A stretch of 6,676 bases of DNA from Lachnospiraceae bacterium UBA2868 (lineage in GTDB: Bacteria > Bacillota_A > Clostridia > Lachnospirales > Lachnospiraceae): the NCBI GenBank assembly GCA_002350465.1, contig DEEW01000065.1, positions 1-6,676 on the forward strand, in the 5' to 3' direction. Positions 1,688 through 6,676 of the stretch are shown one piece after another. How positions within the stretch are numbered: the stretch's first letter is position 1; every line of letters starts with the position of its first letter. The notes beneath the pieces are model-generated. The model saw nothing but the letters and a program-made list of their open reading frames with translations, was not told the DNA's origin and made no database searches. The translations under genes were made by a program, and so were the position numbers.

Positions 1688-3013
1688 ATGGGTAACTGGG
1701 TTGTAGTTGTGGACGATGAGGCACTAAGCCTTACAAGTGCAAAAACGCTTCTTGGATCAGAAGATATGAAAATAAGCTGCCTGCGCTCGGGCAGGGATCT
1801 TTTGAAGTTCATGGATAAAAATGAACCGGATCTGATCCTTCTTGATGTTATGATGCCTGAAATGGACGGGTTTGAGACGCTTGAAATACTCCGAAAACGA
1901 GAAAAAGAAGAGGGAAAACTGGAAACACCGGTTATCTTTCTTACCGGAGATATGGATGAGAGCACAGAACAACGAGGACTTAAGCTCGGAGCTTCCGATT
2001 ATATACATAAGCCGTTTAACAAAGATATCCTTATCAGACGTATCAACAATACGATACAAAATAGCAGAAAGATTGAAAGCCTGACCGAGGATGCCACAGT
2101 CGATAAACTGACGGGTTTTTTGAACAAAACAAGCGGAATAGAGCATATCTGTGATCTGATCCTCAGAGAGAGCGGCACATTTATGATCCTTGATCTCGAT
2201 AGTTTCAAGCTTGTAAACGACCTTCACGGACATGATAACGGTGACCGGGTTTTGGAAGCGTTTTCCTATGTGGTCAGGAACAATACGAGAAGTGATGATA
2301 TTGTATGCAGGATCGGTGGTGACGAATTCCTGGCTTTTTTCTGCGATATGTCAATTGATACTGCCATTCGGGCTCTTGCCGACAGACTGAATGAGCAGTT
2401 CACCTCCGAAGTTACATCTATTCTTGGGAACGATCATGGCATTCCTGTCGGAATATCAATAGGAGCGGTAAATGTTCCTTTGTATGGCAGGAACTATGAA
2501 ACGCTCTTCAAGATGGCAGATGAAGAACTGTATAAAGCTAAGCAAAACGGCAAGCATTGCTGCTCGATATATAGTGATTCGTCTGACGCTGCCCCAGAGG
2601 CCAATTCTCCCGAAGATGAGCTGGAGCGTATTTCAAGGATCATAGAAGAGAGAAATGAGGGACGCGAGGCACTTGTACTTGGTACAGAATCTTTTACGGC
2701 TGTTTATCATTTTGTCTCAAGATATAACAGCAGGTACGGGGGAAGGGCGTTAAAACTTCTGCTTGTTGTTTCCGTTGAAGATGAGACTGAACAGTTGGCT
2801 GAAAAAACAATGACGGAGCTTGGAAATGTACTCAAGACCGGTATACGAAAGAGTGACATCATTATGAAGAATAAGACCAATCAGTTCTTTGTGCTGTTTC
2901 CGGTAATGAATGTGTCGGCATATGAAAAAGTAATTGAACGCATTATTGAAGAATGGAAGAGAGTTCCCGGGTTTGACAGATGTAAGGTGAGTTATGCGGT
3001 TGAGGTGTGCTGA
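1688..3013 (+). CDS. Response regulator with receiver, GGDEF diguanylate cyclase and degenerate second GGDEF-like domain
   Basis: This is a predicted cytoplasmic regulator of 441 residues that makes cyclic di-GMP from two GTP when phosphorylated. Residues 4-125 form a receiver: acidic pair Asp9/Asp10, phospho-acceptor Asp53 in LLDVMMPEMDG, Thr86 and Lys108 in HKPF. Residues 135-295 form a GGDEF domain: metal-binding Asp169 in LDLDSFKLVND, GHDNGD (181-186), an intact GGDEF at 210-214, and RSDD (201-204) five residues before it, the product-inhibition I-site. After an Ala/Pro/Glu-rich linker (297-311), residues 312-441 look like a second GGDEF-like fold without catalytic residues (KTNQF in place of GGDEF). 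The first domain should be active. The ATG at 1688 is the only start that keeps the first receiver strand; the nearest Shine-Dalgarno (AGGGAGA, 1666-1672) is 15 bases away, which is long. It is the first gene of the signalling operon, and the lipoprotein gene follows after four bases. Confidence 0.9.
   Translation: MGNWVVVVDDEALSLTSAKTLLGSEDMKISCLRSGRDLLKFMDKNEPDLILLDVMMPEMDGFETLEILRKREKEEGKLETPVIFLTGDMDESTEQRGLKLGASDYIHKPFNKDILIRRINNTIQNSRKIESLTEDATVDKLTGFLNKTSGIEHICDLILRESGTFMILDLDSFKLVNDLHGHDNGDRVLEAFSYVVRNNTRSDDIVCRIGGDEFLAFFCDMSIDTAIRALADRLNEQFTSEVTSILGNDHGIPVGISIGAVNVPLYGRNYETLFKMADEELYKAKQNGKHCCSIYSDSSDAAPEANSPEDELERISRIIEERNEGREALVLGTESFTAVYHFVSRYNSRYGGRALKLLLVVSVEDETEQLAEKTMTELGNVLKTGIRKSDIIMKNKTNQFFVLFPVMNVSAYEKVIERIIEEWKRVPGFDRCKVSYAVEVC
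3002..3007 (+). promoter_or_regulatory. Ribosome binding site for the lipoprotein gene, inside the upstream coding end
   Basis: GAGGTG lies within the last codons of the cyclase gene, 10 bases before the ATG at 3018, which favours that start. An upstream in-frame ATG at 2994 has AAGG at 2984-2987, so it cannot be excluded. Confidence 0.45.
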
Positions 3014-3017
3014 CAAA

Positions 3018-3806
3018 ATGACGAGAATAATACTGATCGCAACGATGCTTGCAGTCATTGCTTCATTATTTAACGGCTGCAGCACAAATACGGACAGTTC
3101 TCTTCAAACCGTCCTTGACAGCGGTCAGTTGGTTGTAGGCCTTGATGAGAACTTTCCTCCGATGGGTTTTAGGGACGATAAGGGCAATCTTATAGGATTT
3201 GATATAGATCTTGCAAGGGAGGTCTGCAAGCGACTTGGAATATCACTGAAATTGCAGCCTATCGAGTGGAATCGCAAGGAAGATGAATTATATTCGGGCA
3301 GGATCGACTGTATATGGAACGGTATGTCAGTAAGTGCCGATCGTAGAGAGAGTATGTTGCTGTCACAGCCTTACCTTGAAAATGAGCTTGTGTTTGCTGT
3401 CAGAAGTTATTCCAGTATTCAGAACATCAACGATCTGAGAGGGCATAAAGTGGGGGTGCAATCCGGCTCTACCACATATGAAGTCATAAAGGATTCTGAA
3501 ATATATGAAGATATCGAGGTCGTATCACAAAGGGACAATCTGACACTTTTGGAACAACTTAAGAATGGTGAGATTGATGCGGCGTTGATTGATTCGTTCG
3601 TTATATATTATATTGCAAGAAACAGCGAAGATTTCGTACTGCTGTCCGGAGCTCTTGCCAAAGAAAAGATAGCTATAGGTTTTCGAAAAGAGGACGTAGA
3701 ACTTAGAAATAAAATACAGGATACTCTCTCTCAGATGAGAGAGGACAGAACACTCGATAGAATCTCAGAAAAATGGTTCGGCAGTGACATTACCATTGTA
3801 CGATAA
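3018..3806 (+). CDS. Amino-acid-type extracellular substrate-binding lipoprotein (SBP family 3)
   Basis: This is a predicted lipid-anchored binding protein outside the membrane, 262 residues from the ATG at 3018. The N-terminus is MTR, then a hydrophobic stretch (IILIATMLAVIASLF) and NGC, an imperfect lipobox with Cys21 as the lipidation site. The mature part has the SBP_bac_3 signature: LVVGLDENFPPMGF, GFDIDLAREVCKRLG, the WNGMSVSADRRE segment whose Arg normally holds the ligand carboxylate, VGVQSGSTT, and DAALIDSFV in the second lobe. Length is usual for the family (about 250-280). An earlier ATG at 2994 would add eight residues and overlap the cyclase gene by 20 bases. No ABC permease or ATPase gene is nearby. 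It lies between a diguanylate cyclase and a Cache-type sensor, so a role as an accessory ligand receptor for signalling is plausible, though it could serve a transporter encoded elsewhere. The ligand, probably an amino acid, is inferred from family only. Confidence 0.88.
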   Translation: MTRIILIATMLAVIASLFNGCSTNTDSSLQTVLDSGQLVVGLDENFPPMGFRDDKGNLIGFDIDLAREVCKRLGISLKLQPIEWNRKEDELYSGRIDCIWNGMSVSADRRESMLLSQPYLENELVFAVRSYSSIQNINDLRGHKVGVQSGSTTYEVIKDSEIYEDIEVVSQRDNLTLLEQLKNGEIDAALIDSFVIYYIARNSEDFVLLSGALAKEKIAIGFRKEDVELRNKIQDTLSQMREDRTLDRISEKWFGSDITIVR

Positions 3807-3826: not shown

Positions 3827-6094
3827 ATGAAAGAAATCAAGAATCCGAGTATTAAAAATAATATAGTCGTGTTTGTGCTGATGATTATGTTTTTCATAAC
3901 AGTAATCACGGTTTATTATCATGTACTTAGCGAAGAGACCAAGGAAAACATTCTTAAGGAGTGTGAGCTAAACGCTGTAAAATCATCCAATGAGATTGAA
4001 AAGTACCTGATCAAAGGTGTGCAAAGCATTAACACGACTGAAGGATCTATTAACAGCATGATCCGTGACGGACGCTCATCTGCTGAAATACTTGATTTTC
4101 TCGTAGGACAGTCCAAAGCGGTTGAGAGCATACTTCCCGAGGCAACGACAGGACTCTACGGATATATTAACGGTGAATATCTTGATGGTGACGGATGGGT
4201 TCCGGATGATGACTATGATCCGCTTAAGAGGCCGTGGTATATACAGGCAAGAGCCCATATGGGTATGATTGCTGTAGTTGACCCGTATCTTGATGCACGG
4301 ACCGGTCAGATGATAATAACACTTGCAAAAGAAATGTGTGATGCGAAGAGTGTTGTTGCAATCGACTTGTCGCTTAAAGAACTGCAAAATATAACCGAAA
4401 CGATTACAGGTAAGAATGAGACTATCATGGTACTTGGCCATGATTATCACGTCATAGCACATTCAGATCGGAGTGAGATCAACAAGGATTATCGTGATCC
4501 GGACGGATCATTTGGCAATTCTGTTGTATCTGCATACAGAAGAACGGAAGGTAATTCTTTCAGAGTAAACTATGGTAATACCGAATATATAGTCTATTCA
4601 AGAGAGCTGGATAATAACTGGACTGTCTTGTGCGCAACCGATACTACGGATGCGTATCGTGCACTAAGAACCCCTTTTATAATTACTATCATAGTATCGG
4701 TTATCATAGCGGGATTTATTATCCTTAATCTTGTCATTTCGGAACAGAGGAGACGGCGGACACAACAGCTTGAGGAAGAGACGAAAACTGCTGTGGCTGC
4801 AAACAATGCCAAGACCGCGTTCCTTGCAAATATGTCTCATGAGATACGTACTCCGATAAATGCGATACTTGGCATGAATGAGATGGTATTAAGAGAATCC
4901 GGGGATGATAAGATTCTAAAATACTCCGAGAATATCAAAATAGCAGGAGATAAGCTGCTTGATATAGTTAATGATATGCTTGATTTTTCCAAGACCGAAT
5001 CGGAAAAGGTTATTGTCGGCAGGAGAAGGTTTAGCGCTCCATTGGCTGATATACTTGTAGTTGATGATAACCCGATGAATTTAGAGGTCTTCAAGAGCCT
5101 CGTAAGAAGAACTTTTGTTACGACCGATACTGAGTTATCCGGTGAAGGCGCCATATCGAGAACCGGCTCAAAAAAATATGATCTGATCTTCCTTGATCAC
5201 ATGATGCCTGAAAAAGACGGTATTGAGACACTGGCGCAGATCAGATGTGATAAACAAAACCCTAATGTTGGGACTCCGGTTGTGTGTCTTACTGCAAATG
5301 CCATATCAGGTGCAAAGGAATTCTATCTTAATGCGGGATTTGATGATTATCTGACCAAGCCGATAGATCCGGATCGTCTTGAAGCGATATTGTTAAAGTA
5401 CCTTCCGAATGAGAAGATAACGTTTTATGAGAACAAAACGGAAGGAGACATATCAAAAGAGATTCATATTCCTAAAGAACTCAGCATACTAACAGATCTT
5501 TCGGTGGATGTTGCTTCGGGAATATCGAATAGCGGCTCTGCCGAAGACTATATGATGCTTATCCGGGTCTTTCATGAAAGCTATGATGACAGGAAGCAAG
5601 AACTTGAAAGAATGTTTAAAGATCAGGATTATAAGAATTATACGATCAAGATTCATGCGCTGAAAAGTTCTTTACTTCTAATTGGAGCGAAAACTCAGGC
5701 AGAGGGTGCACAGAGGCTTGAAGATGCAGGAAAGCACGGAGATTATGATTACATTGCGAGTAATCATGAGCAGTTTATGAGTGGATGTGATCGATTGGCA
5801 GATCCGCTTGATAAGGTTTTGGAAACCGGGGATGACGCGGATGATAAAAAAACATTGGCAGATGAAGGCAAACTGACAGTGGTTTATGAAGCCTTAAGAG
5901 CTGCGGCCGATGATATGGACTGTGACAGGCTGGAAAATATAATGAATGAACTAAGAAGCTATAGGATACCTATAGAGCACAAAGAGCGTATCAACAGTTT
6001 ATATACTGCCGTACGCAATTATGAGTATGATGCGGTTATATCGATCATTGACGGTGTTGAAGATAAGAATAAACAGACGAGGCAGGAAAATTGA
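3827..6094 (+). CDS. Membrane dCACHE-HisKA-REC-HPt hybrid sensor lacking the HATPase_c domain
   Basis: This is a 755-residue membrane sensor. Order: membrane segment 12-34; outside dCACHE domain about 35-278; membrane segment 283-304; HisKA with H-box FLANMSHEIRTP (His338) to about 392; receiver 407-527 with acidic pair Asp413/Asp414, acceptor Asp457 in LIFLDHMMPEKDG, Thr489 and Lys511; HPt about 570-660 with His610 in KIHALKS; helical C-terminal region 682-743. The dCACHE domain carries Tyr130, Arg135, Trp137, Tyr138, Tyr154, Asp156 and Asp180, matching the amino-acid-recognition motif known from PctA-type sensors. No N, G1, F or G2 box exists: HisKA ends at FSKTESEKVIV (387-397) and FSAPLADILVVDD (402-414) begins the receiver. 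Relatives with a kinase core are, from memory, about 200 residues longer. As written it cannot use ATP itself, but its relay residues are intact. The start has no clear Shine-Dalgarno and lies 20 bases after the lipoprotein stop, so coupling is likely. Domain calls are sure; function is inferred. Confidence 0.88.
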   Translation: MKEIKNPSIKNNIVVFVLMIMFFITVITVYYHVLSEETKENILKECELNAVKSSNEIEKYLIKGVQSINTTEGSINSMIRDGRSSAEILDFLVGQSKAVESILPEATTGLYGYINGEYLDGDGWVPDDDYDPLKRPWYIQARAHMGMIAVVDPYLDARTGQMIITLAKEMCDAKSVVAIDLSLKELQNITETITGKNETIMVLGHDYHVIAHSDRSEINKDYRDPDGSFGNSVVSAYRRTEGNSFRVNYGNTEYIVYSRELDNNWTVLCATDTTDAYRALRTPFIITIIVSVIIAGFIILNLVISEQRRRRTQQLEEETKTAVAANNAKTAFLANMSHEIRTPINAILGMNEMVLRESGDDKILKYSENIKIAGDKLLDIVNDMLDFSKTESEKVIVGRRRFSAPLADILVVDDNPMNLEVFKSLVRRTFVTTDTELSGEGAISRTGSKKYDLIFLDHMMPEKDGIETLAQIRCDKQNPNVGTPVVCLTANAISGAKEFYLNAGFDDYLTKPIDPDRLEAILLKYLPNEKITFYENKTEGDISKEIHIPKELSILTDLSVDVASGISNSGSAEDYMMLIRVFHESYDDRKQELERMFKDQDYKNYTIKIHALKSSLLLIGAKTQAEGAQRLEDAGKHGDYDYIASNHEQFMSGCDRLADPLDKVLETGDDADDKKTLADEGKLTVVYEALRAAADDMDCDRLENIMNELRSYRIPIEHKERINSLYTAVRNYEYDAVISIIDGVEDKNKQTRQEN
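6079..6087 (+). promoter_or_regulatory. Ribosome binding site for the TTG-started sensor gene
   Basis: GAGG at 6079-6082 lies eight bases before TTG 6091, with a second AGGA at 6084-6087. This supports the unusual TTG start, whose TTGA overlaps the stop codon of the preceding gene. Confidence 0.5.
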
Positions 6095-6676
6095 AGATAA
6101 AGTTTGACAGAAAAGACAAAAGATTTAACCTGATGGTAATGTGGACATTAATTACGATCGTCCTTGTTATTATGGTACTTATCATATATTTCGGACTTAA
6201 CAGAAGTAACAGGATGAAGGCATATCAGACGTCAGACCTTTTGATCAAGCAGGTAGAGGACGTTATCGAAGAGAATAAGCGAAAGGAAAAGTCACTTACC
6301 GACTCGCTGAAAGAAAACTACATTTCCAAGGCAAAGGCAGTGGCGTATATCGTAGATTCATCTCCGGAGAAGGAATATGACCTTGCTGAACTGATACGTA
6401 TAGCAAAGCTTATGTCGATCGATGAGATACATCTGTTTACTGAAGATGGGGAAATATACAGCGGCACAGTTCCAATATATTATGGATTTTCATTCGACTC
6501 GGGAGAACAGATGGCTTTTTTTAAGCCTATGCTGAATGACAAGGCGCTTTCGATGTGCCAGGACGTAACGCCTAATACGGCCGAGAGCAAGCCAATGATG
6601 TATGCGATATGCTGGAATGATAGCGGAACACATATGGTTCGATCCCTATCTGGACCATATGTGTTCCGCTATCATT
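6091..6676 (+). CDS. 5' part of a membrane sensor, probably a hybrid histidine kinase (partial; last ~38 bases unreliable)
   Basis: An open frame runs from TTG 6091 to the window end without a stop. It overlaps the preceding stop by four bases (TTGA). The product begins (M)KIKFDRKDKRFNLM, has one membrane segment at about residues 15-36, then a charged helical stretch (37-80) likely to be a coiled coil, and a sensor domain with GEIYSGTVPIYYGFSFDSGEQMAFFKPML and DVTPNTAESKPMMYAICWNDSGTHMV. I recognise this as the N-terminal sensor of large Lachnospiraceae hybrid histidine kinases. The kinase part would lie beyond the window, so the kinase call is an inference. The next ATG (6133) would remove the conserved basic start, so TTG is preferred. 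After base 6638 the frame reads RSLSGPYVFRYH, an artefact of the fold-back at the contig edge; the reverse strand there gives the expected QIGIEP. If complete, this protein could supply the ATP-binding domain its neighbour lacks. Confidence 0.75.
   Translation, partial: MKIKFDRKDKRFNLMVMWTLITIVLVIMVLIIYFGLNRSNRMKAYQTSDLLIKQVEDVIEENKRKEKSLTDSLKENYISKAKAVAYIVDSSPEKEYDLAELIRIAKLMSIDEIHLFTEDGEIYSGTVPIYYGFSFDSGEQMAFFKPMLNDKALSMCQDVTPNTAESKPMMYAICWNDSGTHMVRSLSGPYVFRYH
6616..6676. repeat. Perfect 23-base inverted repeat with 15-base spacer at the window edge (probable fold-back chimera)
   Basis: Bases 6616-6638 and 6654-6676 are exact reverse complements, and the right arm stops at the last base of the window. 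The reverse strand from 6676 repeats NDSGTHMV and continues QIGIEP, a better protein continuation than the + strand frame. The spacer is therefore also inverted native gene sequence. This fits template switching or an assembly fold-back, with GGT at 6636-6638 as the short shared sequence at the junction. Confidence 0.8.

Follow-up and report, generated by a model that had tools for sequence, protein, structure and literature searches.

Hybrid sensors without an ATPase domain in Lachnospiraceae: a recurrent family of putative split-kinase acceptors

In a 6,676-nucleotide stretch of DNA from Lachnospiraceae bacterium UBA2868 (contig DEEW01000065.1; the whole stretch is called the window below) we found a gene for a predicted membrane-bound hybrid sensor that has an acceptor domain, a receiver and an HPt domain and no ATPase (HATPase_c) domain. 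We refer to such proteins as CA-less and to those with the ATPase domain as CA-full. The absence of the domain in the window protein is confirmed by its homologues, and the trees described below indicate that its lineage lost the domain separately from other CA-less groups. We give an even chance to the reading that the protein is a dCache-gated split-kinase acceptor that carries a receiver and an HPt of its own and would be phosphorylated in trans by a kinase encoded alongside it.

The reading frame is open over all 755 codons. The Pfam scan of the protein identified HisKA at residues 328-392 (4e-18) and Response_reg at 409-521 (6e-22), together with two matches below their cut-offs, dCache_1 at 126-267 (42.6 bits, cut-off 45) and Hpt at 578-639 (21.0 bits, cut-off 24.6); no match to HATPase families was found up to E=0.1. 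The relay residues His338, Asp457 and His610 are all present. Thus, the architecture, the intact relay residues and the in-frame join, which a preliminary description had read from the sequence, were borne out. The H-box and the DD motif of the receiver are 73 residues apart in the window protein and 254-257 residues apart in CA-full relatives (63 of 105 among the matches listed, those that the pattern could measure). The window protein thus lacks about 182 residues, in fair agreement with the missing block of roughly 200 residues estimated earlier. The place of the HATPase_c domain of the relatives (about 180 residues) is occupied by a linker of 13 residues. In the AlphaFold2 model (mean pLDDT 79, pTM 0.41, 19-row alignment) one long helix, residues 274-357, comprises TM2, the signalling helix and the first DHp helix; it is followed by the second DHp helix (361-387), a segment of low confidence (387-398) and the receiver. 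The HPt domain is modelled as a four-helix fold, and the model has no ATPase fold between the DHp and the receiver. The helical extension C-terminal to the HPt can be aligned with CA-full relatives and matched no Pfam family in the scan. The coordinates of all features are collected in Table 1.

Table 1. Features of the window and the evidence on which they are placed.
Feature	Position	Strand	Basis or remark
CA-less hybrid sensor, 755 aa: TM-dCache-TM-DHp(HisKA)-REC-HPt-helical C-terminus	3827..6094	+	ORF, Pfam, AlphaFold2
dCache extracytoplasmic sensor region, residues 31-285 (as in probes)	3917..4681	+	Pfam, AlphaFold2
DHp/HisKA hairpin, residues 326-392	4802..5002	+	Pfam, probes, AlphaFold2
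His338 phospho-acceptor codon, in SHEIRTP	4838..4840	+	
13-residue linker at the HATPase_c position of relatives	5003..5041	+	
Receiver domain; Asp457 = 5195-5197	5042..5416	+	Pfam, AlphaFold2
HPt domain; His610 = 5654-5656	5507..5806	+	Pfam, alignment, AlphaFold2
C-terminal helical extension, residues 661-755, conserved in part across the family	5807..6091	+	alignment, AlphaFold2
Family 3 solute-binding protein, in a run with the CA-less hybrid	2994..3806	+	ORF, Pfam
REC-GGDEF response regulator (putative diguanylate cyclase), likely output	1688..3013	+	ORF, Pfam
Downstream hybrid kinase, 5' part	6091..6638	+	complete in L001 8265-11075 (936 aa, with HATPase_c)
Contig-end fold-back = reverse complement of L001 8790-8830; assembly/amplification artefact	6636..6676	.	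comparison with L001

The same join was found in an independent assembly, the Lachnospiraceae MAG UBA3762 (locus L001), where the protein is 97% identical and the gene order is the same, as well as in P0001 (99% identity, a cluster of 87 sequences) and in P0002 (83% identity). These homologues rule out an assembly collapse and a recent in-frame deletion confined to this contig, the two alternatives raised in the preliminary description, and in the homologue search proposed there the contig did not stand as the sole exception. The join recurs in a separate assembly and is still present at 83% identity, and so has been retained over time; the absence of the ATPase domain is genuine because relatives in other species show it too. 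The nearest homologues outside the clade of the window, P0003 and P0004, have HATPase_c.

Among the matches listed, 34 of 167 distinct proteins had a DHp and a receiver without an ATPase match by our probes; beyond P0001 and P0002, the other 32 were 39-45% identical to the window protein, and the precomputed Pfam domains of the 34 included no HATPase_c. Genes for CA-less proteins of the DHp-REC-HPt type were present on 21 contigs among the loci examined (in L133 cut by the contig end), a set that overlaps with the 34 proteins, some of the genes being identical. The Pfam scan of 14 CA-less proteins, including that of the window and nine from a control scan of ten further proteins, found no HATPase; in the tenth protein of the control, from L137 and without the acceptor His (H-less), HATPase_c was detected. 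At least 9 of the 37 genomes of the genus to which the L001 genome belongs carry a CA-less relative, as judged from the best hits (G001, G406, G408, G409, G415, G421, G431, G434 and G436). In a family-wide draw of 397 genomes, six had a match at E<=1e-125 and three of these were CA-less, two of them in genomes known before; the draw undercounts, since only two candidates were scored per genome.

A single loss common to all sampled CA-less proteins was rejected by both trees that we calculated. In the tree of DHp+REC+HPt (66 rows: 31 CA-less proteins, 27 hand-picked CA-full proteins and 8 neighbouring kinases), the proteins of the window, P0001, L001 and P0002 adjoined the CA-full P0003 and P0004 with support 100/99, away from the other CA-less groups, and one CA-less clade was rejected (p-AU 4e-5, or 3e-6 without the long L078 branch). 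In the tree of the dCache region alone (55 rows, 28 CA-less), the clade of the window was again sister to P0003/P0004 (100/99), P0071/L005 were placed elsewhere among CA-full rows, and the remaining CA-less rows lay in a third region alongside the CA-full P0015 and P0034. Here one CA-less clade was rejected with p-AU 1.9e-38, and the starred branches force at least four changes. We infer that the change was a loss rather than a gain, because the CA-full form predominates and the linker is eroded.

An alignment of 19 CA-less proteins shows no variation at His338, Glu339, Arg341, Thr342, Pro343, Asp413/414, Asp457, Lys511 or His610. Across 33 non-redundant DHp segments from CA-less proteins the H, R+3, T+4 and P+5 positions were conserved at 100% and E+1 at 97% (Asp in the other), counts that may be biased, as the segments were picked by an H-box pattern, although the pattern was present in 173 of 174 sequences and the one that it missed, a mis-framed row, also has an H-box. 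The exit from the DHp to the ATPase (columns +47 to +60, DFSKIEAGK-type) had a mean entropy of 2.54 in the CA-less segments versus 0.67 in 47 CA-full ones, and the H-box one of 0.43 versus 0.13, which makes it slightly less uniform in the CA-less set. Judged from these alignments, the CA-less proteins have kept the acceptor box while the linker motif from the DHp to the ATPase has decayed. The DHp is also the best-kept domain between the window protein and P0002 (93%, with REC 90, dCache 86 and HPt 75%); this holds against the CA-full P0003/P0004 as well, and the 93% is thus not special. A comparison of the window with L001 gave 21.5 non-synonymous and 7.5 synonymous changes in the CA-less gene (dN/dS 0.79, a value that such close comparisons inflate) versus 4 and 8 in the REC-GGDEF gene (Fisher p=0.034, rounded counts). 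Recent constraint on the CA-less gene in the species of the window thus looks weak, and this is possible. In a second CA-less pair, L131/L132, dN/dS was 0.155.

Taken over the window and L001, the gene order is REC-GGDEF, solute-binding protein, CA-less hybrid and a further hybrid kinase, which overlaps the CA-less gene by 4 bases (its TTG start was assigned mechanically). In L001 this downstream kinase is complete, with HisKA-HATPase_c-REC-HPt by Pfam, and it retains its own acceptor motif SHEIRTP. The copy in the window has about 182 true codons and no kinase domain by Pfam, as it is truncated by a fold-back with 23-nt arms at the contig end, 41 nt of which correspond to L001. Given the complete kinase in L001, it is plausible that the downstream gene is relevant to the CA-less sensor. 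Of the 19 other DHps found in the L001 genome, that of the 936-aa kinase is the closest to the CA-less DHp (77%, the next 71%). A general rule that the DHps of partners are unusually alike holds in G001 and fails in G002, where, in a ranking of 14 other DHps, those of the cassette partners come 9th (46%) and 13th (37%). At the locus of a CA-full orthologue, L012 (65-67% identity), the REC-GGDEF and solute-binding protein genes are present and no second hybrid was found downstream within the locus. This contrast suggests that in the lineage of the window the loss of the ATPase domain goes together with the second kinase, a single instance of such a link.

Gene neighbours were counted in same-strand runs for 20 CA-less and 30 CA-full genes uncut by contig ends; these loci are phylogenetically non-independent, contig L027 contributes two of the CA-full genes, and the genus search added to the CA-less set. 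An ATPase-bearing gene was present in the run of 15/20 CA-less and 20/30 CA-full genes (p=0.75; one of the 15 counts the H-less protein of L129), so that a special tendency of CA-less genes to adjoin such a gene was unsupported. The runs of L005, L031, L078, L130 and L128 (contig end) had no ATPase-bearing neighbour. REC-GGDEF was in the run of 16/20 CA-less versus 10/30 CA-full genes (p=0.0016). At 11 of the 20 CA-less loci the run includes REC-GGDEF and two other hybrids, the shorter of about 650-700 aa (548 aa in L008) and the longer with a DegV domain; in L028, L040, L044, L046 and L057 this layout is combined with a CA-full sensor. One cassette layout thus takes either form of sensor, which suggests that in this setting the sensor can do without an ATPase of its own. 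The DegV domain, a lipid-binding family, is fused into the hybrid kinase after the receiver, and before the HPt where this is visible (L010 10281-13727 and 23 further loci; 2 of the 24 are partial).

Small ATPase-bearing kinases in which the acceptor His is replaced by Arg were observed at L129 5586-6428 (-) and L137 1498-2373 (-), and the His is also lost (Arg or Gln) in the relatives L138, L140 and L144. In G415 the run contains the CA-less hybrid, REC-GGDEF, a DegV protein and an ATPase protein of 280 aa in which Arg replaces the acceptor His. A 72% relative of the latter in G434, also with Arg and with HATPase_c, lies at the edge of another contig; we infer its adjacency to the CA-less hybrid of that genome, as the two are on separate contigs, each ending beside the expected neighbour. 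H-less ATPase proteins thus exist in both genomes. As specific partners of CA-less hybrids, however, the H-less small kinases were rejected: G432, G407 and G412 have such relatives with no CA-less hybrid beside them by our probes, and loss of the His in this family is therefore not specific.

Unorthodox tripartite hybrid kinases, which include GacS, BvgS and ArcB, use an H1-D1-H2 relay. The window protein is like them in its sensor-DHp-REC-HPt order, in the HisKA with its acceptor His and in the receiver Asp and HPt His, but it differs in that HATPase_c is not on the same chain, and neither the protein nor its homodimer would therefore be expected to autophosphorylate. RetS and LadS both have ATPase domains. 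In this they differ from the CA-less hybrid, whose genes are moreover clustered. RcsD has lost the acceptor His, has no receiver and keeps an ATPase-like remnant; the CA-less hybrid is the reverse, with His338 and the receiver kept and the ATPase gone. A likeness lies in the multiple hybrid sensors on one relay of the RetS/LadS/GacS network (PMC4866733, PMC12189002), and in RcsD being a membrane protein with an HPt that is partnered by a full hybrid kinase (PMC13317618).

The closest parallel is the split kinase CheA3/CheA4 of Rhodobacter sphaeroides, described by Amin, Porter and Soyer 2013 (PMC3591291). As there, the acceptor and the ATPase would be on separate proteins (the partner here being a candidate), with the phosphatase motif on the acceptor protein, and the window protein does present an acceptor domain without an ATPase on one chain. 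It differs in being of HisKA type, with a membrane dCache sensor and its own receiver and HPt; CheA4, as described there, has no acceptor domain of its own, but the candidate partner of 936 aa does have one. The same paper counts, in SMART, 1556 of 42417 HisKA proteins without HATPase, 711 of the 1556 with a phosphatase motif, and treats these as candidate split bifunctional kinases, and in P2CS, HPt or HisKA proteins without HATPase or receiver are classed as phosphotransfer proteins (PMC2716373). Searches of titles and abstract openings, most covering only the best matches, found no paper on the CA-less hybrid family, and a DegV-fused hybrid kinase was unnamed in titles and abstract openings of the listed papers containing the terms. 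The kind is known in outline, a 2013 publication having predicted split HisKA kinases; the recurrent, conserved hybrid family, with its repeated loss and its neighbourhood, is a new form within it.

The kept acceptor, the decayed exit to the ATPase, the interchangeability within the cassette and the overlapping kinase suggest that His338 is phosphorylated in trans and that the phosphate is relayed to REC-GGDEF. Binding of a ligand to the dCache region, possibly delivered by the co-encoded solute-binding protein, would set the state of the DHp hairpin. His338 would then receive phosphate from the ATPase domain of a kinase encoded with it, in the lineage of the window the overlapping 936-aa hybrid, most simply via a mixed DHp dimer. 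The phosphoryl group may flow from His338 to Asp457, His610 and the receiver of the REC-GGDEF protein, the charging of which would adjust c-di-GMP. According to PMC3591291, EnvZ split into HisKA and HATPase pieces stays active. We put forward more tentatively that Lachnospiraceae sensors, many from ruminant guts, may have repeatedly dropped the ATPase and share that of a co-encoded kinase, giving one engine, several inputs and one c-di-GMP output, with a reciprocal split in two species, where an acceptor hybrid without ATPase would be matched by an ATPase protein without acceptor.

Alternatively, the CA-less DHp with its REC and HPt could serve as a ligand-gated phosphatase or phosphate sink that drains the partner kinase or REC-GGDEF as RetS acts on GacS, which we consider less likely than the split-kinase reading, though the most serious of the alternatives. 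The phosphatase motif H[E/D]xxT is retained in 33/33 CA-less DHp segments, and ATPase-bearing neighbours are unenriched and at some loci absent, which together keep such a drain in consideration. HisKA phosphatase activity often uses the ATPase domain as well, however; moreover, Glu+1, Asp457 and His610 are all retained, for which a forward relay is the simpler account. On the side of a sink, free CheA3, the non-catalytic half, is reported as a better phosphatase than CheA3:CheA4 (PMC3591291), and RetS, according to PMC12189002, both siphons phosphate from GacS and dephosphorylates it.

It is improbable that the protein is a relay adaptor that takes up phosphate at its receiver or HPt and bypasses His338, its HPt being charged by the receiver or HPt of the partner, as for RcsD or for LadS via the GacS HPt. 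The intact REC and HPt would allow it, and there are precedents in the literature, namely transfer from LadS to GacS H2 (PMC4866733) and RcsD as the phosphotransfer partner of the kinase RcsC (PMC13317618); yet an adaptor predicts free drift of His338 and the H-box, and both are among the most constrained DHp columns. A decaying pseudogene or an assembly artefact is very improbable: the high dN/dS between the window and L001 and the fold-back at the contig end would agree with it, but the join recurs in independent assemblies and across the genus, the frames are open, the H-box is kept, and dN/dS is low in L131/L132. Returning to trans-phosphorylation, the kept acceptors, eroded linker, several origins and recurring neighbourhood make it testable whether a HisKA sensor can be run wholly on the ATPase of a partner, and also whether it behaves like a switch, as modelled for split kinases. 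For annotation, CA-less hybrid genes should not be taken for truncated kinases.

CA-less DHp-REC-HPt proteins with other sensors were also observed. In L015 (4696-7341) and L031 (4636-7167) the sensor matches iron-only hydrogenase and ferredoxin domains, and a Synergistales MAG (L078) has one with a solute-binding sensor. Two of the 20 DHp matches found in the L001 genome were CA-less. The second (L174 1895-3388, contig C39) is a hybrid of 497 aa with HisKA and receiver, no HATPase in Pfam and an N-terminal part that matches no named Pfam family; its gene lies a few kb from a pair of a DegV-hybrid and an 839-aa hybrid. In the upstream part of the window, positions 1101-1542 diverge from L001 by 4.3%, versus 0.4-1.3% in the downstream genes, a sharp change that is perhaps due to recombination. 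The metallo-beta-lactamase-fold protein at 98-1081 has 327 aa versus 304 aa in L001, and the C-terminal ends of the two differ, apparently by a frame change.
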